A stretch of 64,000 bases of DNA. It comes from Trifolium pratense. Taxonomy: Eukaryota > Streptophyta > Magnoliopsida > Fabales > Fabaceae. Positions 970-58,976 of the stretch are shown one piece after another. The stretch is from contig NC_060060.1 in the NCBI RefSeq assembly GCF_020283565.1, positions 71,161,257-71,225,256 on the forward strand, written 5' to 3'. The notes beneath the pieces are model-generated. The model saw only the letters and a program-made list of their open reading frames with translations, ran no database searches and was not told the origin of the DNA. Every line of letters begins with the position of its first letter. The stretch's first letter is position 1. The translations under genes and the position numbers were made by a program.

Positions 970-2028
970 AATGGCCACGGAAGCTTTGCCAGAGATATGA
1001 AGATTCAGCAAGAGAATAAAAAACAAGTTGATCAACCTTATCTTGATGGCTGGCTCAAAAACACTCCACACAAGAATGAAAACATCAACCCAAACTCTAA
1101 TGCCGCTTACCTTGATGGATGGTTGAAAGATACCAAGGATCAAAAGGAAAAGACTAACCAAAATTCCAATCAAGTTTACCTTGATGGCTGGTTGAAAGAT
1201 AGCCAAGCAAAGTCCACCCCCAACGCCAATCCAGCTTATCTTGATGGATGGTTAAAAGATGGCCAAAAAGCAAAATCCACCCCAAATGGCAACCAAGCTT
1301 ACCTTGATGGATGGTTGAAAGATAACCAGGCTAAGAAGGCAAAATCCACCTCAAACTCCAACCAAGTTTACCTTGATGGCTGGTTGAAAGATAGCCAAAC
1401 AAAGTCGACCCCCAACTCCAACCTAGTTTACCTTGATGGATGGTTGAAAGATGGCCAAAAAGAAAAATCCAACCCCAACTCCAACCAAGTTTATCTTGAT
1501 GGCTGGTTGAAAGATAGCCAAGCAAAACCCAACCCTAACTCCAATCAAGTTTACCTTGATGGTTGGTTGAAAGACATCCAAGCAAAGTCGACCCCCAACT
1601 CTAACCAAGTTTACCTTGATGGATGGTTGAAAGATGGCCAAAAAGAAAAATCCAACCCTAACTCCAACCAAGCTTACCTTGATGGCTGGTTGAAAGATAG
1701 TCAAGCAAAATCCAACCCTAACTCCAATCAAGTTTACCTTGATGGTTGGTTGAAAGACATCCAAGCAAAGTCGACCCCCAACTCCAACCTAGTTTATCTT
1801 GATGGATGGTTGAAAGATGGCCAAAAGGAAACATCAACCCCTAACGTCAAGCAAGCTTACCTTGATGGATGGTTGAAAGATAGTCAAGCCGAGAAAACAA
1901 AATCCACCCCTAACTCCAACCAAGTTTACCTTGATGGATGGTTGAAAGATAACCATGACAAATCCAACCCTAACTTCAATCATGTTTACCTTGATGGCTG
2001 GTTGAAAGACAACCAAGCAAAGTTGTAA
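970..2028 (+). pseudogene. Truncated BURP-family repeat protein (left tandem copy)
   Basis: This is the start of exon 2 of a BURP-family gene, opening directly after a splice acceptor with N-G-H-G-S-F-A-R-D and running in frame through 16 copies of a 19-26 residue repeat centred on Y-L-D-G-W-L-K-D. The repeats are usually preceded by Q-V or Q-A and linked by K/S/T/N/P-rich spacers. The frame breaks at 2024, where sequence starting TGTAACGCC (typical of a gypsy LTR end) replaces the gene; the stop at 2026-2028 is contributed by the inserted sequence. No BURP domain follows anywhere before the next copy at 49374, so the cyclase-like part is missing. It is clearly paralogous to the intact copy: same exon boundary, same repeat order and the same intron MITE. 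It is probably a pseudogene, although a secreted repeat-only protein could still be made if exon 1 exists upstream. Confidence 0.85.
1036..2010 (+). repeat. In-frame minisatellite: 16 repeats of YLDGWLKD
   Basis: There are 16 tandem coding units of roughly 57-78 bases, each holding the nearly invariant core Y-L-D-G-W-L-K. The residues before the Tyr are QP, AA, QV, PA, QA, QV, LV, QV, QV, QV, QA, QV, LV, QA, QV and HV in order. Higher-order units recur (for example spacers GQKEKSNPNSN and SQAKS/TPNSN), which points to expansion by unequal exchange in blocks. Confidence 0.9.
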
Positions 2029-17555: not shown

Positions 17556-17610
17556 AGGCACCCTGTTCTGTTATTTTGGGTGAGCTCCAGGGAGAGTACT
17601 TTCTGGTACA

Positions 17611-22398: not shown

Positions 22399-22404
22399 CA
22401 GTTA
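22396..22404 (+). promoter_or_regulatory. Leaky stop context TAG-CAG-TTA at pol end
   Basis: UAG followed by CAR-YYA is the readthrough signal known from tobacco mosaic virus and reported for soybean SIRE1. Here it reads TAG CAG TTA, and the frame remains open for 806 more codons. The same nine bases occur at the pol end of element 2 (7448-7440, minus strand). Confidence 0.75.
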
Positions 22405-22410
22405 CAGCAG

Positions 22411-25392: not shown

Positions 25393-25403
25393 AAAGGGGG
25401 AGA
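25393..25403 (+). promoter_or_regulatory. Polypurine tract of element 1
   Basis: AAAGGGGGAGA directly before the 3' LTR start at 25405. Confidence 0.9.
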
Positions 25404-25404
25404 T

Positions 25405-26431: not shown

Positions 26432-26540
26432 AATTATCTTTAGAATTATTTTATTTATAAAAAAAAGAAGAAGTAGCCGCACGTTTTCAAACTAAGTAAA
26501 ATTCTAACTAATATCTTGGATAAAAATTCGGGATGTTACA

Positions 26541-27574
26541 AATTGCGATTATTGATACGGGAGAAACACATTCTTTTGTATTTGTTGATTGCAAGAAGCG
26601 TCTTAGTATACATGTATCTGAAATGTCTTGTCGTATGGAAATAGAAACTCCTGCTAGTGGTTCTGTAACTACCCGCCTTGTATGTCGTGACTGCCCCGTG
26701 ATCGTGTTTGGTAGACACTTTGGTATGGACCTAGTGTGTATTCAACTTAGTGGTATCAATATGATCTTTGGTATGAACTGATTAATATTTAATCGAGTTC
26801 ATATCAACTGTTGTGAGAAGACCGTCGTGTTTCCGAAACCGGAGGAGAGTTTGCATTTGATGAGTGAGAAGGAAGTAGTAGAATCTTTGAAGGAACATGT
26901 GGAGATGTATGCTTTGTTTGCATCCTTGAAACTTGAAGGTGGAGTTAAGATGGAAGAGTTGCCGGTTGTTTGTGAATTTCCCGATGTATTTCCAGAAGAT
27001 GTGTCAGATGTACCTCCAAAAAGAGAAGTAGAGTTTACGATTGATTTGATACCTGGTACTAGTCCGATATCTATGAAATCGTATAGAATGTCAGCGTCAG
27101 AGTTAAATGAGTTGAAGAAGCAACTAGAGGAATTACTTGAGAAGAAGTTTATTCGACCTAGTGTATCGCCGTGGGGAGCACCCGTGTTGTTGGTTAAGAA
27201 GAAAGAAGGAAGTATGCGGTTGTGTATTGACTATCGCCAGTTGAACAAAGTGACGATCAAGAATAAGTATCCACTTCCGAGGATAGATGATTTGATGGAT
27301 CAATTGGTTGGTGCTTGCGTGTTTAGTAAGATTGATTTGAGATCCGGATACCGTCAGATTAGAGTGAAACGAAGGATATACCAAAGACAGCTTTTCGGAT
27401 GAGGTATGGTCATTATGAGTATTCAGTGATGCCTTTTGGTGTGACCAATGCACCTGGTGTTTTTATGGAGTACATGAATAGGATTTTTCATTCATTCTTG
27501 GATAAGTTTGTAGTGGTGTTCATTGATGATATTTTGGTTTATTCAAAATCCGAAGAAGAGCATAAAGAGCATTT
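26541..27574 (+). pseudogene. Ty3/gypsy pol remnant: protease and reverse transcriptase (first part)
   Basis: Protease with I-I-D-T-G-E-T-H-S-F (active D-T-G at 26554-26562), then reverse transcriptase with [30 protein letters not shown] and [10 protein letters not shown]. It is typical of chromovirus-like gypsy pol. It is broken by an in-frame TGA (26779) and a frame change near 27370. No gag or LTR belongs to it on the left: its left side abuts a Sirevirus LTR end. It is split at 27574 by Sirevirus element 3 and continues at 39860. Confidence 0.88.
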
Positions 27575-28698
27575 TGAAGGTGTGAAAACACAAGAAGGGG
27601 GGGGTTGAATTGTGTTTTAGCTAAGTTAAAACTTTTTCAGGTTCTTAACTCAACTACGTTAGCAGCGGAAAAGTAACACAATAAATAACAAGTTAAGGAG
27701 ATAGAGAGAGAGATCACACAAGCAATTTATACTGGTTCCTCTCACAAAACGAGAGTAGTCCAGTCCCCTTGCACTTCCAAGGGAGTTCACTATAATCACA
27801 CAAGATTACACCTGCTCAAGCACACAAGCAAGAGACTTCACAACTATGCTCAAGCACACAAGCTTAAGACTTCACACTTAAACACACAAGTTTAAGTTAC
27901 ACACTTAAGCACACAAGCTTAAGTTTCCTCAAGTAATGGTAAAGTATATAAAAATATACAAATGCTCTTAGATGAACCTAAGGTGAGCAAATACAAATAG
28001 TACAGAGTATTTGGCTAAAGTGCAAAAACACTTGAGAAAGGTTCAGAGCTTGTATATCACAGAGTTCAGAGTTTGTTCAGCGCACGTTCAATTCTTGATA
28101 ATTGTTATGTTGTTGCAGCTGATCCTTCAAGTATATATACCACTAGAAAAGAGTCGTTGCAAAGGAGCCGTTGGAGTTGATAACCTTTTGTCTTCAAGCA
28201 GTCTGTCTTGATGCAGTTTGGTTGTATCCAAAACTAAGAAAGAGTTTCAGTTACTTTGACTACTGCAGAGTGGACTTTCCTTATTCAGCTAACAAAACTG
28301 AAGACCCACGTTCTCAAGATAGGACAGACAAAACAGAGGTAGCTGAGCTGATCAGACTTGAAAGGTCCTTTTCTTCATTGGTAGAAGAGTTGACTAGTAA
28401 AGAGAATCTTCACAGCTTTCAAAGAGATCTTCAGAGGTTGATGAAGCTCGTAGACAGACAAGAAGTACTGAAGTCTTCATCCTCTGAACGTTGTAACCTC
28501 TGAAGTCCAACATCTTCTGAGCGCTTGTGAACTTCTGAGTTCACATCCTCTGAACTCCACTCAGGACTTAAATGATGCTTATATCTGCGCACTTAAAATA
28601 AATTTTTAGTCCTTCCAATTTGTTAATTAATACTTTGTTATCATCAAAACCTTTATAGATTTAGGGGCAAACATTTTTAAATCAATTTTGTTCCAACA
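27575..28698 (-). repeat. 3' LTR of Sirevirus element 3
   Basis: 1124 bases, apparently identical to 38731-39854. It holds repeated phrases such as 'ctcaagcacacaagc' (27815-27925) and a GC-poor remainder. Open frames on the plus strand here recur in both LTRs and are not credible genes. Confidence 0.95.
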
Positions 28699-28714
28699 AT
28701 CTCCCCCTTTTTGA
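28699..28714 (-). promoter_or_regulatory. Polypurine tract of element 3
   Basis: On the minus strand AAAAAGGGGGAGAT abuts the 3' LTR. Similar tracts lie at about 28797-28802, 28931-28937 and 29132-29140. Confidence 0.8.
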
Positions 28715-29171
28715 TGATTACAAACATAAGTATTAATTGACAATTGTTGTTAAATTAACTTATCATGTTTCTCTTAGGTTTATGAGGTTTGCAAGCTCCC
28801 CCTAAGATTGATACTTCATAAAGTCTGAACTTTATGTTTTATCCATGATATTTTAATTTAGTATAAGATTAAGATAATTTTGAAATAAAATAAGTTTCAT
28901 ATCTTTCTTCAGAGTGAGAGGTTTGCAAGCTCTCCCCCTAAGTCTCATAAGGCTAAGTTAAAATTGCACTCTTAACTTATCCTTACTTATGAAATTTATT
29001 TCAGTTTCAACTAACTTAGTCTCCGCATTGAAATACGTAAAACAACTTAAAAGTAACAACTTATAACTTAACAGATAAAAGCGAGATAAAAGGCGTGGTT
29101 TCAGTTTTGGAGTATATCAATTAATGCGTAACTACTCCCCCTTTTGTCATTATCAAAAAGTAAAACAAAGT

Positions 29172-29178
29172 TATAAAA
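29172..29178 (+). promoter_or_regulatory. Possible TATA box for the antisense frame
   Basis: TATAAAA about 100 bases before the ATG at 29280; a second T-rich/TATAAAAA lies near 29248. AT-rich sequence makes chance matches common. Confidence 0.25.
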
Positions 29179-29279
29179 CCAAGACAGTCAAAGAAGAAAG
29201 AGTGGTTGTTACAAAGGTGAATTAATTTCAAAAACAAAAACCAACGCGCTCAAGGGTTTATAAAAAGGAACAAGTTAAC

Positions 29280-29645
29280 ATGCCTGCTTCACGTAAAAAC
29301 AAGAAGAAACAAGTGAAGCAAGAGAAGGTAGGAATAATGAAAAGATTTAGTTTACGCATCGCAGAGTTTAAGAGAAAGAAGAACGAAGAGAAACGCGAAG
29401 ACGAAGAGAAGGATAAAAAAGACAACAAGAAACCACAAGATGCTGAGATAATAATCATCTCATCAGACTCTGAAGCTGAAGAGAATGAAGATGATGCTGA
29501 CTATGTGGAGTTCTTGGCTAGCTATGTTCCAGAAGAGGAACAAGAAGAAGAAGAACAAGAGCAAAACCCAGATCCCATTGAAATATCATCAGAGGATGCT
29601 GAGGAGAAATCAGAGATTTCTTCTGAGTTTTATCCATCTGATTAG
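29280..29645 (+). CDS. Antisense small ORF in Sirevirus element 3
   Basis: 121 codons from ATG to TAG on the strand opposite to gag-pol, between ORF3 and the 3' LTR. The N-terminus is strongly basic (K/R-rich, possible nuclear localisation), and the C-terminal half is very acidic (E/D/S). Within it, I-I-I-I-S-S-D-S-E followed by acidic residues matches the pattern of a SUMO-interaction motif (hydrophobic core, serine, acidic tail), and I-E-I-S-S-E-D is a weaker second match. AATAAA follows at about 29704. I do not recognise the protein. Antisense accessory ORFs are described for Ty3/gypsy Tat elements; for a Sirevirus this is unusual. Low-complexity composition means it could be chance. Confidence 0.45.
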   Translation: MPASRKNKKKQVKQEKVGIMKRFSLRIAEFKRKKNEEKREDEEKDKKDNKKPQDAEIIIISSDSEAEENEDDADYVEFLASYVPEEEQEEEEQEQNPDPIEISSEDAEEKSEISSEFYPSD

Positions 29646-29877
29646 GATTAGGTTGTCTTTTTCTTTTTCTGTTTACCAATGTACTCTACATTATCAGATC
29701 ATTAATAAAAATTTTCGTTTTTAAAAGCATCTTGTGTTCTTATGTTCTAATTTAACAAAGAAAAGAATCACAAGCAAAACAAACAAAACATATAATAAAC
29801 CACATAATAAGAAAAAAAAATTGTTCAGAGGATAAAACAGAGAATAAAAAGAATGCATAAAACATGTGCAGAGAATC

Positions 29878-32646
29878 CTAGGGTTGCTTAAGAAGGGCTA
29901 AGAGTTGGTCGAATTTATCATTCAAGGATCCCACATTGGAAACTAAACCATCCACCTTGGTTTCCAATGTCTCTTGAGCAGCTCTTTGACGTTCTAGACC
30001 TTCTTGCTGTTCCCTCAGGGCTTCTTGAAAAATCTGCAACTGATCTGCCATAGCAGGAGCTTGATCTTCAATCACAGGTTCTGGTTCTTCAATCAAAGGT
30101 GCCTTGCCTTTATCAGAGGGTTCACCTTCCTCTGGATAGTCTATCATCAGCACATCCTCTTGATCCTGAGAAGCAAGCACATCCAGTACATCCTCTTCTG
30201 TGGCATCTTCATTATGTAGCTCATTTGCTAACTCAGCAACTCTAGCAGCAGCTTCGTCCAGACGTGCAGTCTCAATCCTTTGATCCTCAAGACGTTGCAT
30301 AAGAGTAGAATCAACCCAGCAATCTTTGAATTCAGACATACGCCTCACAGCAGCAGCTATAGCAACAAGCTTAGCACGCTCATGCTCTTCATGATTGAAT
30401 GGCGTTAACCTTTTCAACTCAGCCCTAGCCAGACTGTCCCTCATGAAGCTTATACCTTCCAGATCCCGCTTACCAATAACAGCCTTAACCTTTGCAGCAG
30501 CAACATCCAAAGCATTGCAAATCCTTGCCTTAATGCTTGATACTTCGAGATCCACATCAGAAGGACAAACTAAGAACCTGTCCTTTATTGTAGATAATCT
30601 AAGCAAGTCTTCATGAAATTGAGTGGATAGATTTCTAAAAGTGTTGGATGATGATGGTGAAGGATTGGGAATGGTAGAGAGAGTAGGTATTTCAGGAGTA
30701 GGGTTGTCAATAATCACAACTTCTACCTCTGAAGGCTTGGGAGCACAAGTGTGAATACGCTCAGGAGAAGCATGTTCAGCACTTGGGTTAGGATGGGGTT
30801 CAGGGGTTGGTTCAGATGATGAGATGTCAGAAGTGGATTCAGGGTGAACATGTTCAGGAGATGGTTCAGGAGATTTATGTTCAGGAGTTGGTTTAGGAGC
30901 AATTTGTTCAGGGGTTGGTTCAGGAGATTTGTGTGCAGGGGTTGGTTCAGGAGGTGGAGAGGATTGTTTTGTGGGAGAGGTTGGTTTAGTGACAGGAATA
31001 TCTGGTTGAGGTTCAGATGGTGGAATGTCAGGTTGAGGTGCAGGTTGAGGTGATGTAGGTTTTGGAGGTGAGCTAGATTTGTGTTGAGTTTCATGAGAAA
31101 AAGGGTGATTATTAAGAGGGTCAGGGCTCAGATGTTTTTCAAGTTCAGATAGGGGGTTATCAGAGGTTGAAATATCAGAGGTTGGTAAGATGGTTTTGAG
31201 AGGTTTGGTGTAACCTAATCCAATCTCTTTTTCATTAAAGACATACTTAGAAGACTTACCTTTATCTTTAGGAGTAGGAGCAGGTCTTTTCCTCAAACGA
31301 GTAGCAAGAGTCTCCTCATCAGATTCAGTCTCATCTTCTGATGTAGATCCTTCAGATGAACTGTCTGAACTATCTTCCTCAATAACAATAGGCTTTTTAG
31401 AAGCTCTCTCAGCAGCCTTGTTTGCAGTTTCTTCATGCTTCCTCTTAGTTCTCTGTTCAGCCATAGATTGCTCAACCTTAACCTTCTTCTGAGCAAGAAG
31501 ATCTGGCTTAACTTGCTCATCCTGAGAATCAGCTTTTCTCTTTGGTTTCCTCTTAGGGTTATACAGATTGTCAGGAGCAGGAGGAATCATACTCCTATCA
31601 ACAACAAAACCTTCTTGTCTGAGCACTTCCAAGTAGCCTTGAATTACATGCTCAGCATCAGCTTCAGATATAAGTGGATAGCCTGTGACATACAGACGAT
31701 CCTCAAGCCTAACAGTGAACTCTTGTGGGGGAGCAACAGGCTTAGATGCAATCAAACGCATCTTGGACAGAAAGTTAGCGTTCAGAATTTCTGGATAGAA
31801 CCTCTTCTCAACTAATTCAGGGTGGAATTTCCTCAAGTTCTGAACAACATGACCTTGATGCAGAAGATCAGACAACAGCCTAGGATAAACTATAGTAGTT
31901 TTCCTCTGAGATTTACTTGCAAAAATGGCTTCACAAATACGTTCAAAAAAGTAATCTCCTAGATTAACCTTCTTTTCAGTCAGAAGAAAATACAGCAGAT
32001 GACGATGAGTCCAGGAGATAGTATCAGTCCCACCAACCCTTGGACTGATAGCTGCTAGGATGATCTTGAAAAGAACTCTACATTCATCAGTCAGACCCTT
32101 TACTTTCCCTTTTAAAGAGAAATCTGTGCAAATGAGATGCAGAAGATCATCCCTGTATCTTGTATCCTTTTCAAACACATCTAACTCTATCCCAGAGTTA
32201 GGTAGACCAAGAAGAGCATTGAAATGAATAGGCGAGATTGCCATGTTCATCCCACAGATATTTGACCTAATCTGTACACCTGTATAATCCAGCAAACCCA
32301 TTTCCTTCCTAGTTTTACCCTTCAGACTAGGATTCCTCTCAATAGCAGCAAGCTCTTCCTTCTTAGCTTCATGCTTATCAAATACCTTTGCTTTCATCCA
32401 AAATTTCTTCAACAAATCTGGATAAATGGGACCATTGAGCATGTCGAAGTACTTATCCCATCCCTGAGCGATAAAGTACTTTTTAACATCAAACCCATTC
32501 GCTTGTAGACCATCGAAATCAACCATCTTCTCTGAAAGAAAAGTAAGTTCAGATTCTGGGAATTCCATCTCATTCCCAACAATCTGAAGATTCTTGAATA
32601 TGAACGGTGGAATCCTTTTTGAAGAAGAAGACGAAGCACCAGCCAT
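29878..32646 (-). CDS. ORF3 / envelope-like protein of Sirevirus element 3
   Basis: 922 residues from ATG at 32646, with its own leader: about 450 bases separate it from the pol stop and no readthrough context is present, unlike elements 1 and 2. The first ~300 residues hold the 'putative plant transposon protein' style domain (W-D-K-Y-F-D-M-L, I-S-P-I-H-F-N-A-L-L-G, S-W-T-H-R-H-L-L-Y-F-L-L and V-Y-P-R-L-L-S-D-L). The middle is a long proline-rich run with recurring P-E-P-T-P-E-type units (about 520-650), and the C-terminus is helical and acidic, ending in a Q/E/L-rich coiled coil. Function is unknown. Confidence 0.75.
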   Translation of the reverse strand: MAGASSSSSKRIPPFIFKNLQIVGNEMEFPESELTFLSEKMVDFDGLQANGFDVKKYFIAQGWDKYFDMLNGPIYPDLLKKFWMKAKVFDKHEAKKEELAAIERNPSLKGKTRKEMGLLDYTGVQIRSNICGMNMAISPIHFNALLGLPNSGIELDVFEKDTRYRDDLLHLICTDFSLKGKVKGLTDECRVLFKIILAAISPRVGGTDTISWTHRHLLYFLLTEKKVNLGDYFFERICEAIFASKSQRKTTIVYPRLLSDLLHQGHVVQNLRKFHPELVEKRFYPEILNANFLSKMRLIASKPVAPPQEFTVRLEDRLYVTGYPLISEADAEHVIQGYLEVLRQEGFVVDRSMIPPAPDNLYNPKRKPKRKADSQDEQVKPDLLAQKKVKVEQSMAEQRTKRKHEETANKAAERASKKPIVIEEDSSDSSSEGSTSEDETESDEETLATRLRKRPAPTPKDKGKSSKYVFNEKEIGLGYTKPLKTILPTSDISTSDNPLSELEKHLSPDPLNNHPFSHETQHKSSSPPKPTSPQPAPQPDIPPSEPQPDIPVTKPTSPTKQSSPPPEPTPAHKSPEPTPEQIAPKPTPEHKSPEPSPEHVHPESTSDISSSEPTPEPHPNPSAEHASPERIHTCAPKPSEVEVVIIDNPTPEIPTLSTIPNPSPSSSNTFRNLSTQFHEDLLRLSTIKDRFLVCPSDVDLEVSSIKARICNALDVAAAKVKAVIGKRDLEGISFMRDSLARAELKRLTPFNHEEHERAKLVAIAAAVRRMSEFKDCWVDSTLMQRLEDQRIETARLDEAAARVAELANELHNEDATEEDVLDVLASQDQEDVLMIDYPEEGEPSDKGKAPLIEEPEPVIEDQAPAMADQLQIFQEALREQQEGLERQRAAQETLETKVDGLVSNVGSLNDKFDQLLALLKQP

Positions 32647-33098
32647 TGTTGGAGATTAGGGTAAGGTTTGGAAGACTAACGAGAGAGAAAGAAATTGTGT
32701 TGGAGGTTTAGAGAGAATATGAAAGTGTAGGTTGTGAAAGTGAATAGTGTGCAAGTGTATTGTGTAAGTTTATTTAAATGAGTACAGTTAACACGAAAAT
32801 AGCAAATTTGGGAAGTTACGCTAATTGACAAAAAGTTGAATACCAAAAATCATCATTAACCACCCACTACCTGACACACGTAGACCACGTGCAGAAAATT
32901 TACTCGGTAACTGCTATTTTAATGGACAACTGTTCAGCAGTGAATACTAAACGTTTCCCACTAAAATAATTCAAAGCCTCTGAGTTATTTAAAATTCTCT
33001 ATCAGAGTCAAGTACTTCAGAGCTTGTGTTTCAGATGTTCTGAATCATAAGTTCTGATATACATAACCTCTTACACTTTAATTGCCAAAAACAATTTT
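32647..33098 (-). other. Intergenic leader between pol and ORF3 of element 3
   Basis: No coding sequence. CT-rich and GA-rich runs immediately upstream of the ORF3 ATG (32650-32720) look like a 5' untranslated leader, so a spliced or internally initiated message is possible. Confidence 0.4.
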
Positions 33099-34280
33099 TC
33101 ATTCAGAGATTGAAAACATGTTCAGATGTTTCTTTATAAAATCAAATCTTTCAACAGATAAAGCTTTAGTAAATATATCAGCCCATTGATTTTCAGTATC
33201 AACAAACTGAATATCTATAATGCCTCTCTGAACATAATCTCTGATAAAATGGTGTTTAATTTCAATATGTTTGGCTCTAGAGTGTAGAATAGGATTTTTA
33301 GATAAATGAATGGCTGCAGTATTATCACAATATAAAGGAATATTGTTACTGCTTACCTGATAATCTTCTAACTGATATTTTAGCCAGAGTAGTTGTGTGC
33401 AACACTTAGCTGCTGAAATGTATTCTGCTTCTGCTGTAGACAAAGCTATAGTAGTTTGTCTCTTACTAGCCCAGGAGATAAGGTTTTCACCAACAAATTG
33501 ACAATTGCCACTTGTGGATTTTCTTTCAATTTTATCTCCAGCATAGTCAGCATCACAGAATCCATTTAGCACATAATCATTGGATTTCTTATAGAGAAGT
33601 CCAAGATTAGTTGTTCCTTTCAGATACCTAAAGATTCTCTTTACAGCAGTAAGATGAGATTCTCTGGGATCTGACTGGAATCTTGCACATAAGCAAACAC
33701 TGAATAGAATATCTGGTCTAGAGGCTGTCAGATAGAGTAAGGAACCAATCATACCTCTGTAGACCTTTTGATCTACCTTTCCTTCATCATCTGACTTCCC
33801 CATGTTGGTAGTTGGATGCATAGGAGTATTCATTATCTTGCAGTCATCTAAATTGAATTTCTTCAGAAGTTCTTTAGTGTATTTTGATTGATGAACATAA
33901 GTTCCTTCCTTCTTCTGATTGATTTGAATTCCAAGAAAGAACTTCAACTCTCCCATCATGCTCATTTCAAATTCATCCTGCATTATCTTAGAAAAACTCT
34001 TGCACAAAGCAGCATTAGTTGAACCAAAAATAATATCATCAACATAAATTTGAATGATTAAGATGTCTTCTTTGGTTGTCTTTCTAAAGAGTGTGCAGTC
34101 AACCTTTCCTTTCTCAAAACCTTTTTCAAGAAGGAAATTACTGAGTCTGTCATACCAAGCTCTTGGAGCTTGTTTCAGACCATACAGTGATTTCTTCAGT
34201 TTAAAAAACATGTTCAGGGTTTGAGACATCTTCAAAACCAGGAGGTTGCTTAACATACACTTCTTCAGAAATAAAACCAT
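33099..34280 (-). pseudogene. Pol 3' part of element 3: RT end and RNase H
   Basis: 393 codons open, with [49 protein letters not shown] and H-I-E-I-K-H-H-F. The only link to the upstream pol frame is broken at a run of six T residues near 34208, where one extra base shifts the frame. It ends in TGA with no CAR-YYA context. Confidence 0.88.
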
Positions 34281-36258
34281 TTAAGAAGGCACTTTTAACA
34301 TCCATTTGATATAAGGTTATTCCATGATTAACAGCATAAGATAGAAGTAACCTGATAGCTTCAAGTCTAGCAACTGGTGCAAAGGTTTCAGTATAGTCAA
34401 TCCCCTCTTGTTGACTATAACCTTGTGCAACCAATCTAGCCTTGTTCCTTACCACTTCACCTTGTTCATTCAGCTTGTTTCTGAATACCCATTTTGTTCC
34501 AATAATGTTCTTGTGTGAAGGTTTAGGCACTAGAGTCCATACATCATTCCTTTGGAATTGATTTAGCTCTTCTTGCATTGCTACAATCCAAGCATCGTCC
34601 TTCAGAGCTTCATCAATCTTTGAAGGTTCCATCATTGAGATAAGACCAACTAATGATTCCTCATTTCTCAGTTGAGATCTTGTCTTTCTTGGACTATCCT
34701 TGTTGCCTAAGATCAGTTCCTCTGGATGTGATGACTTGTATTTGAAAGTATTTCTTGGGGGCTCATCATCTTCAGACTCATCAACATCAGGTTCAGCAGA
34801 TGCTTCTGTTCTTGGTTGTTCAGAGTCTGTAGGAACTATTGTGTTCAGAGGTACTTCAGAGAATGGATGTTCTGAGTAGTTTGGAATATCTGAATATTGA
34901 TCCTCTGATACCTGAAATCTAGATAAACCTTCCACAAGCTCTGACACTTGGTCAGGCTCTTTGTCATCAAATTTGACATGCATACTTTCTTCCACAGTGT
35001 GTGTTTCAGAAATATATAGTCTGTATGCTTTTGAGCGTTCAGAATATCCTATAAAGATACCCTTATAACCTCTAGCATCAAATTTCTTTAGATGGACTTT
35101 GTTATTTAAGATGTAACACGTACATCCAAACTGATGAAAATAAGAAATATCAGGTTTTCTTCCTTTGAACAATTCATAAGCAGTTTTGTTCAACTTAGAT
35201 CTGATATAGATTCTATTTTGAACATAGCATGCTGTGTTTACAGCTTCTGCCCATAAAAACTTTGCTACGTTTGTTTCATGCATCATGGTTCTGGCCATTT
35301 CTTGCAGAGTTCTATTCTTCCTTTCTACAACCCCATTTTGTTGAGGAGTTCTAGGAGAAGAGAATTCATGCAGAATGCCAAATTTTTCACAAAAGTTTTC
35401 AAAAGGTTCATTTTCAAATTCTCCACCATGATCACTTCTAACTTTTAAAATAGTGTAGCCTTTTTCATTTTGAATTTGTTTGCAGAAGATGCTAAACTCA
35501 TCATAAGCTTCATCTTTTGTTCTTAGGAATTTTACCCAAGTCCATCTACTGTAATCATCAACAATCACTAATCCATACTTCTTTCCATTGATTGAAGCAG
35601 TGTTAACTGGTCCAAAAAGATCAATGTGAAGAAGTTCCAATGGTCTTGAGGTAGAGACAATGTTCTTAGGTTTAAAAGATGACTTTGTAATCTTTCCTTT
35701 TTGACATGAACCACAAAGTGTGTTTGAGTGATATTTAATTTTAGGTAAACCTCTGACAAGGTCAAGCTTACTAAGCTTAGATATTAACCTCCAGTTAGCA
35801 TGGCCTAACCTCTTATGCCAGATCCATTTTTCTTCACTCAAGGTCAAAAGACACATCACTTTTTGTTCATTCAAATCAGAAAGATTAATTTTATAAACAT
35901 TGTTCTTTCTCAGACCTTTGAAAATCATGGTGTTATCAGATTGTTTAGACACAGTACATGATTCCTTATTAAAGACAACTACATAACCATTGTCGCAAAA
36001 TTGACTTATGCTCAATAGATTATGCTTAAGTCCATCAACTAACCAAACATCATTAATAGATAGGGAGGAATTACCTACTGTACCTGTACCTATTATCTTT
36101 CCTTTCTGATTACCTCCAAAGCCAACAGAACCTCCTTCTTTCATGGTTAGCTTGGAAAACAGTTGTTTGTCACCAGTCATGTGCCTTGAACACCCACTAT
36201 CCAGATACCATGAATGATTCATGATACTTCTTTGAGTGATAGGCTGTATGAGAAACAA
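34201..36258 (-). pseudogene. Pol 5' part of element 3: protease, integrase, RT
   Basis: 685 codons. Protease [13 protein letters not shown] at the start; integrase with [25 protein letters not shown] and [11 protein letters not shown] up to [12 protein letters not shown]. The frame starts without a good ATG and is offset from gag, so translation would need a frameshift or represents damage. It ends early at the T-run frameshift near 34208. Confidence 0.88.
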
Positions 36259-36260
36259 CT

Positions 36261-38660
36261 TTAATCACTACAATGGAACTCTTTATCACAGTTAATGATA
36301 AAGTCATCCCAATATTCTTCCTCTTCATTGATCAAGTTCTGATTGTTCACTTGAGAACTTGTCAGCCATTGGTCAAGGACATAAGCCCTTCTTCCTTTGC
36401 ATAGAACTTGTTTCCAAACTCTAGGTAGGACATATCCTTTCCTAGTTGGTAAATCTGAATGATACATAATTTCAGCTTTTGGTACCCATCTTCTGGGTCC
36501 ACGCTTGTTAGTCCACAAATGATTACTGTGTTGTTGAGTGTGAGAGAAAGATTTTGGTTTGGAATAATAACTCTTTTGAAAATATTTCTTAGTTTGAGTT
36601 CTGTTATTATTCCAGGACTTGGATTGTTTATGGTCCCAGAGTTTGTATTTATCACCAGTCCATTGATTTGACTGGTTATACTTACTGACTCTAGAATCAT
36701 AAATAACCTTAGTCCTATGTTGCCTCTGAGGTTTGAGGTTTGACTTTCTTTTAAAAACTTCTGAGCCTTTAGGTTGACTTTTCTTATGAACTGGAGTTCC
36801 TCTGGTTCCAGAAGTTGAAGCCTCAGATTTTGAAACTTTCAGAACATCTGAACTGATACTGTCAAGTTCTGAATAGCTTTTATCTTCTGAGCTTTTCTTC
36901 CCAGATCCTGAGGAACTTGGTTCCTCTGAGTTGTCATTTCCCAAATCTCTCAGATTATTATCCTCATCTTCCAGAGTACCAAATTTCTTTCCTTCTTCAC
37001 TCTGAGGTACAACATAGTAAACCCAAGATTTTCCAACCTTTTTGGGATAGGTCTTTAGCTTTGAATATGTTCTACCATATTCATAGCCAAGTCCCTCTCC
37101 TCTATGTCTCATGACATTATAAACAAGATTAGCAGCTTTGCTCTTACCAAGGTTGAGATGCACAAACTGTTGAAGAGCCATTTCTTGCTCATCAGTAGGT
37201 TTGTGACACACAGCACAACCCTTTTCAAGATCATTTACTCTATTCAGAGTTTCTTGATATAGACCTTGAAAATGTTCTGCTTGTTCAGTCAGAGTGTTAA
37301 GGTTTTCTTGTAAAACTTTTTGTTTACTTAACACTCTGAGATGTTTCTCAATGACCTTGTTAAGTGCAGTTATAAGTTGAGATTTAGAACAGTCAGAAAA
37401 TACCTCATCAGTTACTTCTGAATCTGATTCTGATTCATCGTCTGAGTCTACATCTGAGTCAGTTGAAGCCATCAGGGCTAGATTTGCTTCTTCTTCTTCC
37501 TCAACTTCTTCCTCAGATGATAGCTCTTCAAAAGTAGCCATCAGACTCTTTCTCAATTTACTCTTGAATTGTTGCTTCTTTGAGCTGTATCTTTTGCTTT
37601 TGTCTTTAGCAGACATTTCTGGACAATCAGCAATAAAGTGTCCTGGCTTCTTACAGTTGAAGCAGTTCTTCTGATCATCCTTTTTGCTGACAAAATTTCT
37701 GGAGCTGTTTCCTCTGAAATTTCTTTTGTTAAATCTGTTCCATTGCTGAAACTTGGTGAATAACGCAAACTCATCCTCATTCATCTCATCCTCTTGACCA
37801 TCAGCAGAAGATTCTTCTTCAATATCAAGAAGCTGAGTCTTAAGAGCCTTAGAAGTAGTCTTAGTTGACTGTAAAGCCACTGACTTAGACTTCTTCTTAG
37901 TTTCTGAGTCAGCATCCAGAACCATCTCATGGCTTCTGAGATTGCTTATCAGAGCTTCAAGACTCAGAGTCTTGAGATTTTGAGCTTCCTCTATTGCAGT
38001 GACCTTGGGTCTCCAAGCAATAGGAAGACTTCTCAGAATCTTCTGAACATGGTCATAGGTAGAATAACTTCTCTTAAGAGCTTTAAGACCAGATACAAGG
38101 ATTTGAAACCTTGTAAACATAGTCTCAATGTTTTCATCTTGTTGCATAGTGAAAAGTTCATATTGTCTTATCAAAAGACTAGCTTTAGCCTCTTGAACCT
38201 TTTCATTACCATCATAGGTAGCACACATAGAATCAAAGATAGATTTAGCAGTAGACTTGTTCTCTATTCTGACATAGTCCTCATGTCTAATAGCACCAAC
38301 AACAATGTCCTTTACTCTATGATGTTTTGTGTAGATTTTTAGGTTAGCTGGTGTGAGTAACTTTCTATTCTCCATGGACAACCTACCATGTTCATTCAAG
38401 TTTTCAAAAGTTACTCCCAACTCAACCAAATCCCACAACTCATGATCAATAGCAGTAATATTGCTATACAGTCTCTCTTTCCACCACTCAAATAATGAAG
38501 CATCACCATTGAATATAGGGGCTTTTCTATTGCCACTATGTTCATGTGATTCATTACTTAAGTAGTCATAACCAAAAGCATTTCTAGGACCACCACCAGC
38601 ACCACTGGCATTACCGGCTTCACCGGTTGTTCTAGTACTACTATCATCTCCTCCAGACAT
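36261..38660 (-). CDS. Gag of Sirevirus element 3
   Basis: 799 residues from ATG at 38660. A glycine-rich N-terminus is followed by the capsid-type region ([20 protein letters not shown]) and one zinc knuckle [14 protein letters not shown], then an acidic S/D/E stretch, helical segments, and a basic, aromatic C-terminal tail. It is about 90% alike by eye to the gag at 57183. The TAA stop lies two bases before the pol frame opens in another phase. Confidence 0.9.
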
Positions 38661-38717
38661 AGTGTTCTCACAAGATCTTTACTGTCTCACTGTTAAGTGA
38701 AAGTAACAGACCAGGTG

Positions 38718-38729
38718 CTCTGATGCCAA
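38718..38729 (-). promoter_or_regulatory. Primer binding site of element 3
   Basis: On the minus strand TGGCATCAGAGC, with the same single change from the canonical initiator tRNA-Met complement as element 2. Confidence 0.8.
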
Positions 38730-38730
38730 T

Positions 38731-39854
38731 TGAAGGTGTGAAAACACAAGAAGGGGGGGGTTGAATTGTGTTTTAGCTAAGTTAAAACTTTTTCAGGTTC
38801 TTAACTCAACTACGTTAGCAGCGGAAAAGTAACACAATAAATAACAAGTTAAGGAGATAGAGAGAGAGATCACACAAGCAATTTATACTGGTTCCTCTCA
38901 CAAAACGAGAGTAGTCCAGTCCCCTTGCACTTCCAAGGGAGTTCACTATAATCACACAAGATTACACCTGCTCAAGCACACAAGCAAGAGACTTCACAAC
39001 TATGCTCAAGCACACAAGCTTAAGACTTCACACTTAAACACACAAGTTTAAGTTACACACTTAAGCACACAAGCTTAAGTTTCCTCAAGTAATGGTAAAG
39101 TATATAAAAATATACAAATGCTCTTAGATGAACCTAAGGTGAGCAAATACAAATAGTACAGAGTATTTGGCTAAAGTGCAAAAACACTTGAGAAAGGTTC
39201 AGAGCTTGTATATCACAGAGTTCAGAGTTTGTTCAGCGCACGTTCAATTCTTGATAATTGTTATGTTGTTGCAGCTGATCCTTCAAGTATATATACCACT
39301 AGAAAAGAGTCGTTGCAAAGGAGCCGTTGGAGTTGATAACCTTTTGTCTTCAAGCAGTCTGTCTTGATGCAGTTTGGTTGTATCCAAAACTAAGAAAGAG
39401 TTTCAGTTACTTTGACTACTGCAGAGTGGACTTTCCTTATTCAGCTAACAAAACTGAAGACCCACGTTCTCAAGATAGGACAGACAAAACAGAGGTAGCT
39501 GAGCTGATCAGACTTGAAAGGTCCTTTTCTTCATTGGTAGAAGAGTTGACTAGTAAAGAGAATCTTCACAGCTTTCAAAGAGATCTTCAGAGGTTGATGA
39601 AGCTCGTAGACAGACAAGAAGTACTGAAGTCTTCATCCTCTGAACGTTGTAACCTCTGAAGTCCAACATCTTCTGAGCGCTTGTGAACTTCTGAGTTCAC
39701 ATCCTCTGAACTCCACTCAGGACTTAAATGATGCTTATATCTGCGCACTTAAAATAAATTTTTAGTCCTTCCAATTTGTTAATTAATACTTTGTTATCAT
39801 CAAAACCTTTATAGATTTAGGGGCAAACATTTTTAAATCAATTTTGTTCCAACA
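38731..39854 (-). repeat. 5' LTR of Sirevirus element 3
   Basis: 1124 bases; no difference seen from 27575-28698. On the minus strand it starts TGTTGGAACAAAATTG and ends CACACCTTCA. Confidence 0.95.
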
Positions 39855-49373: not shown

Positions 49374-52300
49374 ATGGCGCACAAAGTTGTTCTCTTTCTC
49401 CTCCCTTTTGTCTTGCTTTTCATCATTGTAAGTAGTTTACTTGCATACAATGCATTCATGCTTATCTCTTTACATTTATTTATTTTTTTTTTGAAATGGC
49501 TATTTGCGGTTTTGATAATTTATTTATAGTAGTCCGTCATTATTTTTCATTCTTTAGCACGCTCTTGATTATTGTGAGTTTACACAGAAGCGGAGCTAGT
49601 GGTGGCCCGGTCGGGCCACGGTCCACCCAAAATATTAGGAAATTACCATGATACCCATAGTACTTTTGTAGTGTTAATACTTTATATATCAGATTGGGCA
49701 AATTCAAGGTTGAAGGTGCCAACTTCCACTCCTGGTCACTTCCAGTTTTTGCATTTTGTTTATTTATTTATTTTTTTTAACAAAAAATCAACTTTCTTAA
49801 GCTTATTCGGAAAAAAAATGTTATTAAGCCACATTTTTCTAAAATATTTAATTTTGATGTGTATATAGAAAAATTAAAAATGTATAATTTCTATTTTCTC
49901 AAAAAAAAAACATTTAAAAATTAAAAATAATATGTTTTTTTTTTGTGAAGCATAAAAATAATATGGTTCTCGTATTTAATTTACATGTTATAATTTTTTG
50001 GCGGCCCACCCAAAAAAAAAATTCTGGCTCCACCACTGAGTTTACATTCATGCATGTTATATCTTTACATTTACAGTTTTCATCATTTTAATTAGTGCTG
50101 CTCTTGATCATAATGAGTTTATAATTTATAATTTGGGGTTGCTAACTTACGCCCACATATTTAGGTGGGAGTAAGTTAGCAAGTATACTCCACTTAGTTT
50201 TTACTAAAATATCATCTCTTATTTTAAAAATAGCATTTTCAAAAAAGAATACTTTTGTAATTTCCATTTATTTTTATATAAAAAACATATAAGAACCTCT
50301 TCTTTGTTAATAATTACTGTTTTTTCCATAACAGTTTTATCGCTATCTTTTTCAATTTATTTTGGTATACTTTTTTTTTTTGTCAAAAAAAAAAAATAGC
50401 AGCAAATGATCATTTTGTGCATAATACCATGAACGAAACTACTATATATTCTTTAACCTTTTTATTACCATAATTACAGTTGGTATTATTGACTAAGAAA
50501 AAAGAGTAGGTGAGTTTAAGTAAGTCTCACAATAATTAACACAAAAAATCTCACAAATAGAATATCACTGCCCGCAATAATGTAAGAAACGGTTATGATG
50601 TTTTTTTGAAAAAAATAACAAACTTACAAAATTACCCTTTTATTTAAAATTGGTTTTAACAATAGAAAGTGGGCTCTTGGTAAATAACAAGTGGGTGTAT
50701 GCTTTGCTAACTTACTCCCACATGTTTTAGGTGGGAGTAGCCCCTTTATAATTTATCTTAATTCATAGTTATTTTTTGACAAATGATAACTAGTGCACCT
50801 GATGCATTAGTTAAGAGTATATATTTTAAATTTTTTTCTTTAAAGTTGTATAGCCAAACACTTTCTTTAAAAATCTAAATTTTTATTTTCTCAATATACT
50901 TTTTTTTTAATTTCTTAATTAGTGCGGGGTGCACTAATTAGCAACACCCTTATTTTTTATCCTTGTGCTGCTCTTGATCATCGTGTTTACTTGCATGCAT
51001 GTTTGTATCTTTACATTTCATTTGCATTTATTTATCATATCCATCATCACTAGCTCACTTTCATCTTTATTAGCAATTGGGCTCGTTGAATTTATATTGC
51101 ATGCATGCTTTAATATCTTCCTCTTAAGTTGTTTTTATGTCCATTATATGTTTGATTTTGTAAAATGATGTTTATACTTTGTAAATATGTTCTCTATTTT
51201 TATTTTCTAAAATATTTGTTAATTTACCTTTTTAATAATAAAAAAAATATATATAACACTTTTGGAAAGAATAATTATGATCGAAAGAAGATGAAATGCT
51301 AGCGAGTAATGATGCATTTGTGAAAAATAATGAAAATATTTTTTTGACACATTTTTATTGTTTTTGAAATAATGCACATAATTGTTGATTTCAATAGTAT
51401 GTTATCTTATGCCGTTCACAAATAAAATTATCAACTTTTAAAATAGTGAATGATTTCACACAAACTAAACGGGCCTATATTATTCGTTATTTAAAATATG
51501 TATCTCATAATAAAACATTTGTGTTTGTATATTTGATCATATATATCATCCAAAACATGTAGTTAAATTGTTATTCGCTAATACTTATTTATTCAATTGC
51601 ATTGTAGAATGACCACAGAAGCTTTGCCAGAGATATGAAGATTCAGCAAGAGAATGAAAAACAAGCTGATCAACCTTATCTTGATGGTTGGTTGAAAGAT
51701 AGTCAAGTAAAGTCGACCCCCAACGCCAATCCAGCTTATCTTGATGGATGGTTAAAAGATGGCCAAAAAGCAAAATTCATCCCAAATGGCAACCAAGCTT
51801 ACATTGATGGATGGTTGAAAGATAACCAAGCTGAGAAGGCAAAATCCACCTTAAACTCCAACCAAGTTTACCTTGATGGCTGGTTGAAAGATAGCCAAAC
51901 AAAGTCGACTCGAAACTCCAACCAAGTTTACCTTGATGGATGGTTGAAAGATGGTCAAAAGGAGAAATCCAACCCCAACTCCAACCAAGTTTATCTTGAT
52001 GGCTGGTTGAAAGATAGCCAAGAAAAATCCAACCATAAATCCAATCAAATTTACGTTGATGGTTGGTTGAAAGACAACCAAGCAAAGTCGACCCCCAACT
52101 CCAACCAAGTTTACCTTGATGGATGGTTGAAAGATGGCCAAAAAGAAAAATCCAACCCCAACTCCAACCAAGCTTACCTTGATGGCTGGTTGAAAGATAG
52201 CCAAGAAAAATCCGACCATAACTCCAACCAAGTTTATCTTGATGGATGGTTGAAAGATGGCCAAAAGGAAACATCAACCCCTAACGCCAAGCAAGCCGAG

Positions 52301-53350
52301 AAAACAAAATCCACCCCTAACTCCAACCAAGTTTACCTTGATGGATGGTTGAAAGATAACCATGACAAATCCAACCCTAACTTCAATAATGTTTACCTTG
52401 ATGGCTGGTTGAAAGATGGCCAAAAAGTAATATCCACCCCGAACTCCAACCAAGCTTACCTTGATGGATGGTTGAAAGAAAGTCAAGCCGAGAAAGCAAA
52501 ATCCACCCCTGACTCCAAACAAGTTTATCTTGATGGATGGTTAAAAGATAGCCAAGTTGAAAAAACAAAAGCTACCCACATCTCGACTCAAGCTTACCTT
52601 GATGGTTTGTTGAAAAACTCACACGCAGAACCAATTGATAAATTATCTTCTAAAGTTGACCATACAGAGGCATTCAAGATGGCTTTTTTCGCTATAGAAG
52701 ATATGTATGCAGGGAATGTAATGACCTTGTCATTTCCTATCAGAGAATATGCTAATTTCTTGCCAAAAAAAGTAGCCGACTCCATTCCTTTATCCAAGTC
52801 ACAAGTACCAAGCCTTCTTCAACTATTTAAGCTTACAAAAGATTCTCCCCAAGGTGAAGACATGCAAGACATAATTGATCAATGTGAATCTCCACTACAA
52901 AAAGGGGAGACCAAAGCTTGTCCTACTTCAATCGAGTCTATGGTTGAATTTGTTCATAGTGTCATTGGTTCTGACGCCAAATATAACGTTCTCACAACTC
53001 AATACCCCACAACATCAGGTGCAGCTTTGCAGAACTACACCATTTTGAAAGTATCAAAGGATATCTATGCTCCTAAATGGGTAGCTTGTCACCCAAGGCC
53101 TTACCCTTATGCTCTTTACTATTGCCACTATCTAGACATAGGAAGCAGGATCTTCAAAGTTCTTCTAAAGGGTCAATATGGAGACACTATGGATGCTTTG
53201 GCCATTTGCCACCTAGACACATCTGACATGCCTCCTAATCATATCATATTCAAGTATCTTGGAATGAAGCCCGGGGAAGGTCCACTATGTCATTTCTTCC
53301 CTGTAAAGCACGTTGTTTGGGTGCCACTCCCATCAGAGGCCTCCAACTAA
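49374..53350 (+). CDS. BURP-domain protein with 14 YLDGW repeats (candidate burpitide cyclase precursor)
   Basis: Two exons, 49374-49427 and 51608-53350 (phase 0; donor GTAAGT, acceptor TTGCATTGTAG), giving 598 residues. Exon 1 is a signal peptide core (M-A-H-K-V-V-L-F-L-L-P-F-V-L-L-F-I-I), so the protein enters the secretory pathway. Residues ~40-355 are 14 tandem repeats with Y-L-D-G-W-L-K-D (one Y-I-D-G-W, one Y-V-D-G-W) plus a decayed last unit Y-L-D-G-L. Residues ~371-596 are a BURP domain: F-F...M-T-L-S-F-P at its start, a conserved Cys pair, then C-H-x10-C-H-x26-C-H-x25-C-H, the family signature. Known autocatalytic BURP cyclases use copper bound at such residues to crosslink Trp or Tyr in core peptides. 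Here the repeated Q-V/A-Y-L-D-G-W is the obvious core candidate. Alternatives: a cell-wall structural BURP protein (RD22 or PG1-beta-like) without cyclase activity. Confidence 0.9.
49585..50038. mobile_element. hAT-type MITE in BURP intron
   Basis: 454 bases flanked by the perfect 8-base duplication AGTTTACA (49577-49584 and 50039-50046). Ends CAGAAGCGGAGCTAG and, inverted, CAGTGGTGGAGCCAG form the terminal repeats. Eight-base duplications and CAG-type ends are hAT hallmarks. Confidence 0.85.
50135..50744. mobile_element. Mutator-like MITE in BURP intron
   Basis: 610 bases flanked by TTTATAATTT (50125-50134 and 50745-50754), compatible with a 9-10 base Mutator-type duplication. The ends start GGGGTTGCTAACTTAC; near each end is a hairpin built on CTAACTTAC...GTGGGAGTAAG. 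About ten bases are missing near the right end compared with the orthologous copy at 1-534. Confidence 0.7.
50785..50950. mobile_element. Possible small MITE with GCTAAYTAGTGCACC ends
   Basis: GATAACTAGTGCACC at the left is mirrored by GGTGCACTAATTAGC at the right. The left BURP copy keeps only the left end (near 575-600). Flanking duplication not clear. Confidence 0.4.
51675..52617 (+). repeat. In-frame minisatellite: 14 YLDGW repeats plus one decayed
   Basis: Coding repeat units of about 60-75 bases. The residues before the core Tyr run QP, PA, QA, QV, QV, QV, QI, QV, QA, QV, QV, NV, QA, QV, QA. Unit three is Y-I-D-G-W, unit seven Y-V-D-G-W, and the last Y-L-D-G-L. One core has been removed near 52298 by a 33-base deletion compared with the left gene copy. 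Confidence 0.9.
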
Positions 53351-56541: not shown

Positions 56542-57074
56542 TGTTGGAACAAAATTGATTTAAAAATGTTTGCCCCTAAATCTATTAAGGTTTTGATGAT
56601 AACAAAGTATTAATATACAATTGGAAGGACTAAAAATAAAAAAAACTACTATTACACCCGCTCGAACAATTCATATTTGCGAATACAAGCTCTGAACCTC
56701 TGAACTAGTGTTTTTAACTCTTAGTCCAAATACTTTGTGCTCATTGTATTTGTTTATTAAGGTTCTCTTAGAGCAGTTGTATTCTTTCAACAACTTTATT
56801 ATCTCTGTTTTGAGAAGTCTTAAGCTTGTGTGCTTGAGCATAGTTGTGAAGTCTCTTGCTTGTGTGCTTGAGCATTTGTAATCTTGTGTGATTATAGTGA
56901 AATCCCTTGGAAGTGCAAGGGGACTGGACTACTCTCGTTTTGTGAGAGGAACCAGTATAAATTGCTTGTGTGCTTTCTCTCTCTCTTATCTTATTATTGT
57001 GATTTTTATCCGCTGCCAACTTAGTTAAGTTAAGAACTTTGAAAAAGTTTCAACTTGGCTAAAACACAATTCAA

Positions 57075-57091
57075 CCCCCCCCCCCCCCCCC
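57075..57091 (+). repeat. Run of 17 C residues in the LTR
   Basis: Elements of the same family at 27575 and 38731 have 8 at this place. The length is likely unstable in the genome or in sequencing. Confidence 0.85.
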
Positions 57092-57115
57092 TTCTTGTGT
57101 TTTCACACCTTCAAT

Positions 57116-57127
57116 TGGTATCAGAGC
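57116..57127 (+). promoter_or_regulatory. Primer binding site of element 4
   Basis: TGGTATCAGAGC, perfect complement of the initiator tRNA-Met end, two bases after the LTR. Confidence 0.9.
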
Positions 57128-57182
57128 ACTGGTCTGTTACTTTCACTTAACAGTGAGACAGTAAAGATCTTGTGAAAACATT

Positions 57183-58976
57183 ATGTCTGGAGGAGACGAA
57201 AGTACTAATACTGGTACTCCTGGTGATGCCAGTGGTAGTGGTAGAACTGGATCTGCCTTTGGTTTTGATTATTTAAATAATGAATCACATGAACATAGTG
57301 GCAATAGAAAAGCCCCTATATTCAATGGTGATGCTTCATTATTTGAGTGGTGGAAGGAAAGACTTTATAGCAATATCACTGCTATTGATCATGAGTTGTG
57401 GGATTTGGTTGAGCTGGGAGTAACTTTTGAAAACTTAAATGAACATGGAAGGTTGTCCATTGAGCACAGAAAGTTACTCACACCAGCTAACCTAAAAACC
57501 TACACTAAACATCACAGAGTAAAGGACATTGTTGTTGGTGCTATTAGACATGAGGATTATGTCAGAATAGAAAACAAGTCATCAGCCAAATCTATTTTTG
57601 ACTCTATGTGTGCTACCTATGATGGTAACGAGAAAGTTCAAGAGGCTAAGGCTAGTCTCTTGATAAGGCAATATGAACTTTTCACCATGCAACAAGATGA
57701 AAATATTGAAACTATGTTCACAAGGTTTCAAATCCTTGTATCTGGTCTCAAAGTTCTAAAGAGGAGTTATTCTACCTATGACCATGTTCAGAAGATTCTG
57801 AGAAGTTTTCCTCTTGCATGGAGACCTAAAGTCACTGCAATTGAGGAAGCTCAAAATCTCAAGACTCTGAGTCTTGAGGCTCTGATAAGCAATCTCAGAA
57901 GCCATGAGATGGTTCTGGAAGCTGATTCAGAAGCTAAGAAGAAGTCCAAGTCTGTGGCTTTACAGTCAACTAGGATTTCTTCCAAAGCTCTTAAGACTCA
58001 GCTTCTTGACATTGAGGAGGAATCTTCTGCAGATGGCCAAGAGGAAGAAATGGGGGAAGATGAGTTTGCCCTATTCACCAAGTTTCAGCAATGGAACAGG
58101 CTTAACAAGAGAAATTTCAGAGGAAACAGCTCAAGAAATTTTGTTAGCAAAAAGGATGATCAAAAGAACTGCTTCAACTGTAAGAAGCCAGAACACTTTA
58201 TTGCTGATTGTCCAGAAATGTCTGCCAAAGACAAAAGCAAAAGATACAGCTCAAAGAAGCAACAATTTAAGAGCAAATTGAAAAAGAGTCTGATGGCTAC
58301 TTTTGAGGAGCTATCATCTGAGGAGGAAGAGAAAGAGGCAAATCTAGCCCTAATGGCTTCAACCGACTCAGATGTAGATTCAGAGGATGAATCAGAATCA
58401 GACTCAGAAGTTACAGATGAGGTATTTTCTGACTGTTCTAAAACTCAACTTATAACAGCTCTTAACAAAGTTATTGAGAAACATCTCAGAGTGTTAAGCA
58501 AACCAAAAGCTTTACAAGAAAAGCTTAATGGTCTAAGTGAACAGGAAGGTCATTTTCAAGGTCTATATCAAGAAACTCTGAATAGAGTAAATGACTTTGA
58601 AAAAGGTTGTGCTGTTTGTCACAAACCTATTGATGAGCAGGAATTGGCTCTTCAACAGTTTGTGCATCTCAACTTTGGAAAGAGCAAAGCTGCAAATTTA
58701 ATTTATAATGTCATGAGACATAGAGGAGAAGGAGTTGGCTATGAATATGGTAGAACATATTCAAGGCTAAAAACTTATCCCAAAAAGGTTGGAAAATCTT
58801 GGGTTTATTTTGTTGTACCCCAAAGTGAAGAGGGGAAGAATTTTGGTACTCTGGGAAATGAGGATGATGATCTGAGAAAATTAGAAGCTGACAGCTCAGA
58901 GGAACCAAGTGTTGGAGTAAGCCCTAAAAGCCAATCTATTTTGATAGAATCGTCTTTTGTGTTCTTTGATTTGTGA
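57183..58976 (+). pseudogene. Gag of Sirevirus element 4, truncated
   Basis: About 576 gag codons remain, then a foreign tail from 58910 adds about 20 codons to a chance stop. Capsid-type region and one zinc knuckle CFNCKKPEHFIADC, in which the usual Gly before His is Glu. It closely parallels the 799-residue gag of element 3 up to the cut. The acidic S/D/E segment at about residues 385-410 is slightly shorter than in element 3. Confidence 0.88.

Follow-up and report, generated by a model that had tools for sequence, protein, structure and literature searches.

What does a gene make when it joins a run of tryptophan-containing units to a BURP domain, the domain that crosslinks core peptides into the cyclic peptides of plants known as burpitides? 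This question is raised by a gene at positions 49374..53350 of a 64,000-nucleotide stretch of Trifolium pratense DNA (contig NC_060060.1, positions 71,161,257 to 71,225,256 of the forward strand; hereafter the window). Our analysis of sequence and structure models suggests that the gene probably encodes a secreted, fused multi-core burpitide precursor and cyclase. Its gene structure, repeats, domain, predicted fold, the conservation of its units and the clade to which it belongs are directly established. Fused multi-core precursors are already known; what is new here is a clade of proteins with Trp cores that stands beside legume proteins with in-register Tyr cores, as judged from their sequences.

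Gene, repeat units and BURP domain

The gene proposed by an earlier reading of the sequence alone (the sequence-only reading) is real. The ATG at 49374 and the end of the stop codon at 53350 delimit an intact gene of two exons and 598 amino acids: exon 1 (49374..49427, forward strand, as are all features of this gene) encodes 18 residues that, jointly with the start of exon 2, form a signal-peptide-like sequence and are the same in the T. pratense database protein P0001; the intron (49428..51607) has GT-AG borders; and exon 2 (51608..53350) contains the repeat array followed by the BURP domain and runs through the stop. The N-terminus was judged signal-like by eye, without a predictor. The first 42 residues, splice included, are those of P0001, and since this identity runs across the splice, it supports the gene model. 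In the BURP part the protein is 97% identical to P0001 and 83-85% identical to four T. repens proteins.

The array (51671..52618) consists of 15 units, 14 of them with Y[LIV]DGW and the last one (about 52589-52609) with QAYLDGL, that is, with YLDGL instead of the Trp-containing core. The number of 14 Trp units given by the sequence-only reading thus stands, but its exact pattern Q-V/A-YLDGW is found in only nine of them (seven QV and two QA), the remaining five being QPYLDGW, PAYLDGW, QAYIDGW, QIYVDGW and NVYLDGW. Gln occupies position -2 in 12 of the 14 Trp units (13 of 15 when all units are counted), and Asn immediately precedes Gln in 10 of 15. Inside the units, Gly and Tyr are fixed as residues, yet their codons show synonymous variation; pairwise codon differences among 30 units of the window DNA are 637 synonymous versus 169 replacement in the core and 209 versus 1065 in the linker. 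This synonymous variation, together with the presence of the same units in 18 database proteins, places the units beyond chance. A comparison with a second copy of the array in the window (described below) over 589 aligned bases gave nonsynonymous changes at 2 of 180 core sites and 18 of 292 linker sites (Fisher p 0.008), but this test is weak taken alone, because the core has fewer synonymous changes as well (2/36 sites, as against 14/77 in the linker).

Together with the two window copies, these 18 proteins yield 217 units, or 151 distinct 16-residue strings; a unit was accepted at five or more matches to eight consensus positions, so the following counts are inflated. Among the distinct units, 147 have the Tyr, 150 the Asp, 149 the Gly and 148 the Trp. 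The site three before Trp is always L, V, F or I (141, 5, 3 and 2 units, respectively), and Trp is followed by L (141), Y (4), F (4), V (1) or W (1), then by K (150), then by D (116) or N (31). The constant block across relatives is Y-L-D-G-W-[L/F/Y]-K-[D/N], in which conservation runs on past Trp. Units mostly recur every 20-23 residues; the period can be as short as 14 in T. repens and is nine in one instance in P0001.

Upstream of the core, Q was found in 109 and N in 102 of the distinct units. By source, Gln at position -2 is present in 13/15 units of the window gene, 18/25 in T. pratense, 7/44 in T. repens, 65/72 in Vicia and Lathyrus, 4/8 in Sesbania and 9/9 in Prosopis. These counts show that Gln is usual yet dispensable in the Trp-core family, and contradict its earlier assignment as the fixed start of the core: K, P or S replaces it in 37 of the 44 white clover (T. 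repens) units, and therefore pyroglutamate cannot be a family-wide feature.

The BURP domain (PF03181, 52685..53326, residues 360-573 of the exon-2 protein), a putative burpitide cyclase, matches with E 3.2e-67 and 226.7 bits against a cut-off of 27. All four Cys-His (CH) motifs that had been described are present as CH-X10-CH-X26-CH-X25-CH-X8-W (53087..53320), the expected copper ligands, in agreement with the spacing CHX10CHX25-27CHX25-26CH of fused burpitide cyclases; when 43 proteins are aligned, each of these Cys and His residues is either invariant or conserved in at least 90% of them. An FF dipeptide at 378 and the pair C444-X11-C456 are both present; an FF pair and a surface CX11-12C pair are given as hallmarks of burpitide cyclases in PMC12874468 (here and below, statements on published work refer to the available parts of the sources). 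The sole relative by sequence with a solved structure is AhyBURP, a copper cyclase of peanut (8sy2, 8sy3; E 7.7e-15), and the predicted fold matches 8sy3/8sy2 in Foldseek (E about 1e-11, template modelling score by target 0.62-0.67), the predicted local distance difference test (pLDDT) of the domain model being about 80-96 per block of ten. A trait of fused cyclases, aromatic-ended cores in the same polypeptide, is represented by the 14 units ending in Trp. The fused precursor-plus-cyclase architecture proposed earlier is supported.

On the repeats, some Pfam matches exceeded the cut-off (Myosin_N and PG_binding_3 in the gene; Myosin_N, Methyltransf_30 and PEGA in the second copy); they were rejected as repeat artefacts.

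Trp-core and Tyr-core groups

A maximum-likelihood tree was built for 63 BURP domains, leaving out P0011, P0046 and P0048, in which the motif pattern was not found, and P0049-P0065; P0083-P0085 came later. The outgroup as chosen does not correspond to a single side of a branch, and long branches are formed by P0043, P0072 and P0082. P0072 (Solanum commersonii) has two BURP-like halves in one predicted protein, the first half without the fourth CH, and may be a fused gene prediction.

The 18 Trp-core rows of this tree form one clade with support 100/100, including the window protein and proteins of T. pratense, T. repens (four), Vicia villosa, V. faba, Lathyrus oleraceus (pea; three), L. sativus, Sesbania and Prosopis. 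It is adjoined by 34 Tyr-core rows, mostly from legumes, on a branch that is not firm (93/70). Outside both groups lies a small group of P0079 (Fagus sylvatica), P0069 and P0071, also with Tyr cores, the Fagus core being QPYIAGY. Prosopis, which belongs to a different legume subfamily than clover, has both kinds of cores, Trp in P0017 and Tyr in P0031 and P0034.

The legume Tyr-core proteins (P0019-P0042 and others) are the nearest group outside the clade and share with the window protein the signal-like start, the repeats, the BURP domain and units that are in register when the printed proteins are aligned by eye, but have Tyr for Trp and Thr or Ala for Asp, and the BURP domain is 54-61% identical (the legume proteins listed). 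Their 329 units, collected with a pattern in which both Tyr are preset and the choice of residue behind the first Tyr is limited, are N-[E/Q]-P-Y-I-[T/A]-G-Y-like. We know of no product of these proteins. Thr stands two residues before the second Tyr in 230 of the 329 units. Cores of the type S/TxY have been called prevalent, without a known molecule (PMC11250218), and the fused legume Tyr-core proteins may be the fused counterpart of these.

As one Trp clade has Tyr cores beside and outside it, and Prosopis has both, the simplest history is a single change: the sequences suggest that the presumed ring-forming residue was swapped from Tyr to Trp once, in early legumes, before the subfamilies of clover and Prosopis split. 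Medicago, Cicer, Glycine, Vigna, Arachis and Lupinus each yielded Tyr-core matches but no Trp-core protein in searches that restrict candidates by length and shared words; this only suggests loss of the Trp core in these genera.

Eleven columns of the domain pass a strict diagnostic test that sets the 18 Trp-core rows against 37 Tyr-core rows, three of which are those of the beech group. Two of these columns, 515 and 559, are close in sequence to CH residues; they were chosen post hoc among the eleven and do not amount to a test. Position 515 (codon 53096..53098) is Arg in 18/18 Trp-core rows, whereas the 37 Tyr-core rows have Leu (30), Met (4), Gln (2) or Val (1); position 559 (codon 53228..53230) is Met in 18/18 and Trp in 37/37, respectively. 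The Trp-crosslinking AhyBURP has Met at 559 and Leu at 515. Met559 looks derived, since Trp at this position is also found in Solanum, Sphagnum and two rows with a matching motif that resemble the beta subunit of polygalacturonase 1 (PG1-beta-like), and Phe in three grass-type rows. Going by sequence, we hypothesize that Arg515 may contact the core Asp.

Expected product and its alternatives

The copper chemistry, the bond, the cleavage and the product are inferred. The C-terminal BURP domain would bind copper via its four CH motifs and, with oxygen, would join the Trp of every Y-L-D-G-W unit to a residue close by; the likeliest site is the beta-carbon of the Leu three residues before it, attached by a C-C bond as in stephanotic acid or a C-N bond as in cercic acid. 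Proteases would then free small cyclic peptides; an asparaginyl endopeptidase is a plausible candidate, since Asn often precedes the unit and Asn before Gln would suit cleavage by such an enzyme. Gln, where present, would become pyroglutamate. We place the Leu-Trp bond first because known burpitides have a link from Trp to the Leu or Ile three residues earlier and this site is L, V, F or I in all 151 distinct units; given burpitide chemistry, its chances would be about even. That Trp stands where the in-register relatives have Tyr fits a crosslinking residue.

The BURP family, the predicted fold and the layout shared with known fused precursors support this proposal. The fused multi-core precursors LbaLycA (twelve cores), KjaBURP, CcaBURP1/2 and SkrBURP are described with the same N-terminal repeated cores, C-terminal BURP domain and aromatic core end, but the window core differs from theirs by the constant Asp-Gly, the constant L/F/Y-K-D/N after Trp, and a Gln that is optional across the clade. 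Stephanotic acid and moroidin (QLLVW and QLLVWRGH) have Leu three before Trp, linked C-C through an indole carbon of Trp. The sequence-only reading had noted this spacing, which is indeed the same; the linked Leu is, however, at core position 2 there, whereas the Leu here is at position 4 from Gln, preceded by Tyr, and the spacing alone does not explain the constant Tyr, Asp and Gly. Cercic acid (QILFW) likewise has an aliphatic residue three before Trp, its Ile being at position 2, and a C-N bond like that in cercic acid is possible in the window product by analogy. Arabipeptin A (FLWGY) shares Leu-x-Gly-aromatic and, in its Leu-Tyr link joining positions 2 and 5, the spacing, but has Tyr instead of Trp and a split pathway with separate precursor and cyclase genes. 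Lyciumins A and B, of a type marked by a bond from the indole nitrogen of Trp to carbon, have Gly four before Trp, where the window unit has Tyr. The core YLDGW was found in no paper of the literature searched, the main burpitide discovery papers lying outside that scope, so that an earlier mention is possible; the available parts of PMC11253845, PMC11250218, PMC12186524, PMC8672867, PMC11991032, PMC10349150, PMC12871766, PMC12874468, PMC5313189 and PMC4756517 contain no core of this type.

Several observations weigh against the proposed function. In cores characterized by 2021 the start is an N-terminal Gln (or Val), and Gln, usual in Trp burpitides, is not conserved here (7/44 in T. repens). 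Core length and link position differ from those of characterized Trp burpitides, and a Leu-Trp ring alone explains neither why Tyr, Asp and Gly are constant nor why L-K-D/N follows Trp. Core docking is absent in both AlphaFold2 models (of the exon-2 protein and of the last three units with the domain), the repeats having pLDDT <50, and the tree is without the characterized multi-core cyclases LbaLycA, KjaBURP, CcaBURP and SkrBURP.

The unexplained constancy could reflect burpitide chemistry with another main bond, for example from Trp to the Asp two before it, or with the internal Tyr closing the ring, or with a pair of rings like those of legumenin, whose source is alfalfa seeds, and selanine A. 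The core Asp and Tyr are as constant as Trp, Thr is at the Asp position in 230/329 Tyr-core units, and second links through Tyr occur in legumenin and selanine A; on the other hand, Asp is linked in no burpitide described in the literature examined, and two precedents exist for Leu or Ile at the third position before Trp. We consider this variant, which falls within the proposed function, unlikely.

A reading outside burpitide chemistry is that of a cell-wall repeat protein of the polygalacturonase beta-subunit sort, where the BURP domain dehydrogenates repeat residues and the repeats stay one long mature protein. In such a protein, where two residues show the same i,i+3 spacing, the Phe of FxxY repeats is lighter by 2 Da, a loss interpreted as didehydro-Phe, and the repeat domain alone is the mature protein (PMC5313189); moreover, one relative, P0004, bears the name polygalacturonase 1 beta-like protein 3. 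As both products are lighter by 2 Da, a plain mass shift would not tell a crosslink from a didehydro residue. FxxY is absent from the window repeats, as is Phe from the core, and the PG1-beta-like rows P0044, P0045 and P0047 are far from the Trp-core clade in the tree, which makes this explanation improbable. That the domain is inactive as a cyclase and the unit has another role, for instance that of a linear signal peptide or a binding motif, is hardly probable. YLDGWLKD does loosely resemble bacterial choline- or glucan-binding repeats, and 17 weak matches (P0049-P0065, E 3e-5 to 5e-4) are annotated PF01473, PF19127 or PF19085, but these matches span 16% of the query, PF01473 itself is not matched in Pfam, and the Cys and His of the metal site vary little or not at all among 43 proteins.

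A truncated second copy and a possible change of chemotype

Window positions 1-2028 match the intron and exon 2 of the gene. This second copy (970..2028, forward strand) has the exon-2 start, 16 YLDGW units and a stop, without a BURP domain; its intron extends from before the window to 969, so that exon 1 lies outside, and parts of the two introns are alike (1-626 versus 50234-50837, 89.7%). No second BURP domain was found within the window. It could be a fragment of a gene; alternatively, given a signal exon upstream, it could be a separate precursor for the cyclase of its neighbor to process. A search for repeat-only relatives gave none: all 21 database matches carry PF03181, which favors recent truncation. 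A transposon at the break (TGTAACGCCCC at 2024) was not substantiated: 11 bases recur at 14718, but blastn of 2029-3350 gave no other match in the window.

The two copies are about 47 kb apart, with long terminal repeat (LTR) elements and other sequence between them. Three long LTR retrotransposons were identified at 3351-13485, 16515-26432 and 27574-39854 (LTR pairs 99.9%, 99.9% and 100% identical), Copia-type by Pfam for the first and by resemblance for the other two, each with an apparent target duplication of 4-5 bases. Each has an extra long frame matching PF20167 (Transposase_32, putative plant transposon protein), at 5181-7430 (reverse strand, 749 amino acids), 22453-24816 (forward, 787) and 29878-32646 (reverse, 922), respectively. 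A partial relative of the third element lies in the opposite orientation at 56811-58976 (about 90% over 2.1 kb) and includes a 597-amino-acid frame at 57183-58976.

Taken jointly, these observations could be explained, tentatively, by a change of chemotype in an early-legume Tyr-core cyclase. From an ancestral core like Q-P-Y-I-x-G-Y, the crosslinked Tyr would have become Trp and the neighboring Thr or Ala the invariant Asp, with Leu515 changing to Arg, which could hold the new Asp, and Trp559 to Met beside the copper ligands. Clovers, vetch, pea, faba bean and Prosopis would then make Trp-ringed [Q]-x-Y-L-D-G-W peptides whose Asp is free, and the 16-core copy without a cyclase would be a fused precursor becoming a split one, served by its neighbor. 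The clade makes testable what sets Tyr versus Trp joining by a BURP cyclase, as it offers two neighboring groups with in-register cores.

Mung bean has an insecticidal cyclopeptide, vignatic acid A, that has been linked to a BURP candidate gene, and therefore a defence role is worth testing. Should the proposed function hold, an unrecognized family of cyclic peptides with a Trp ring would exist in food and forage legumes, each protein yielding up to 14 of them.

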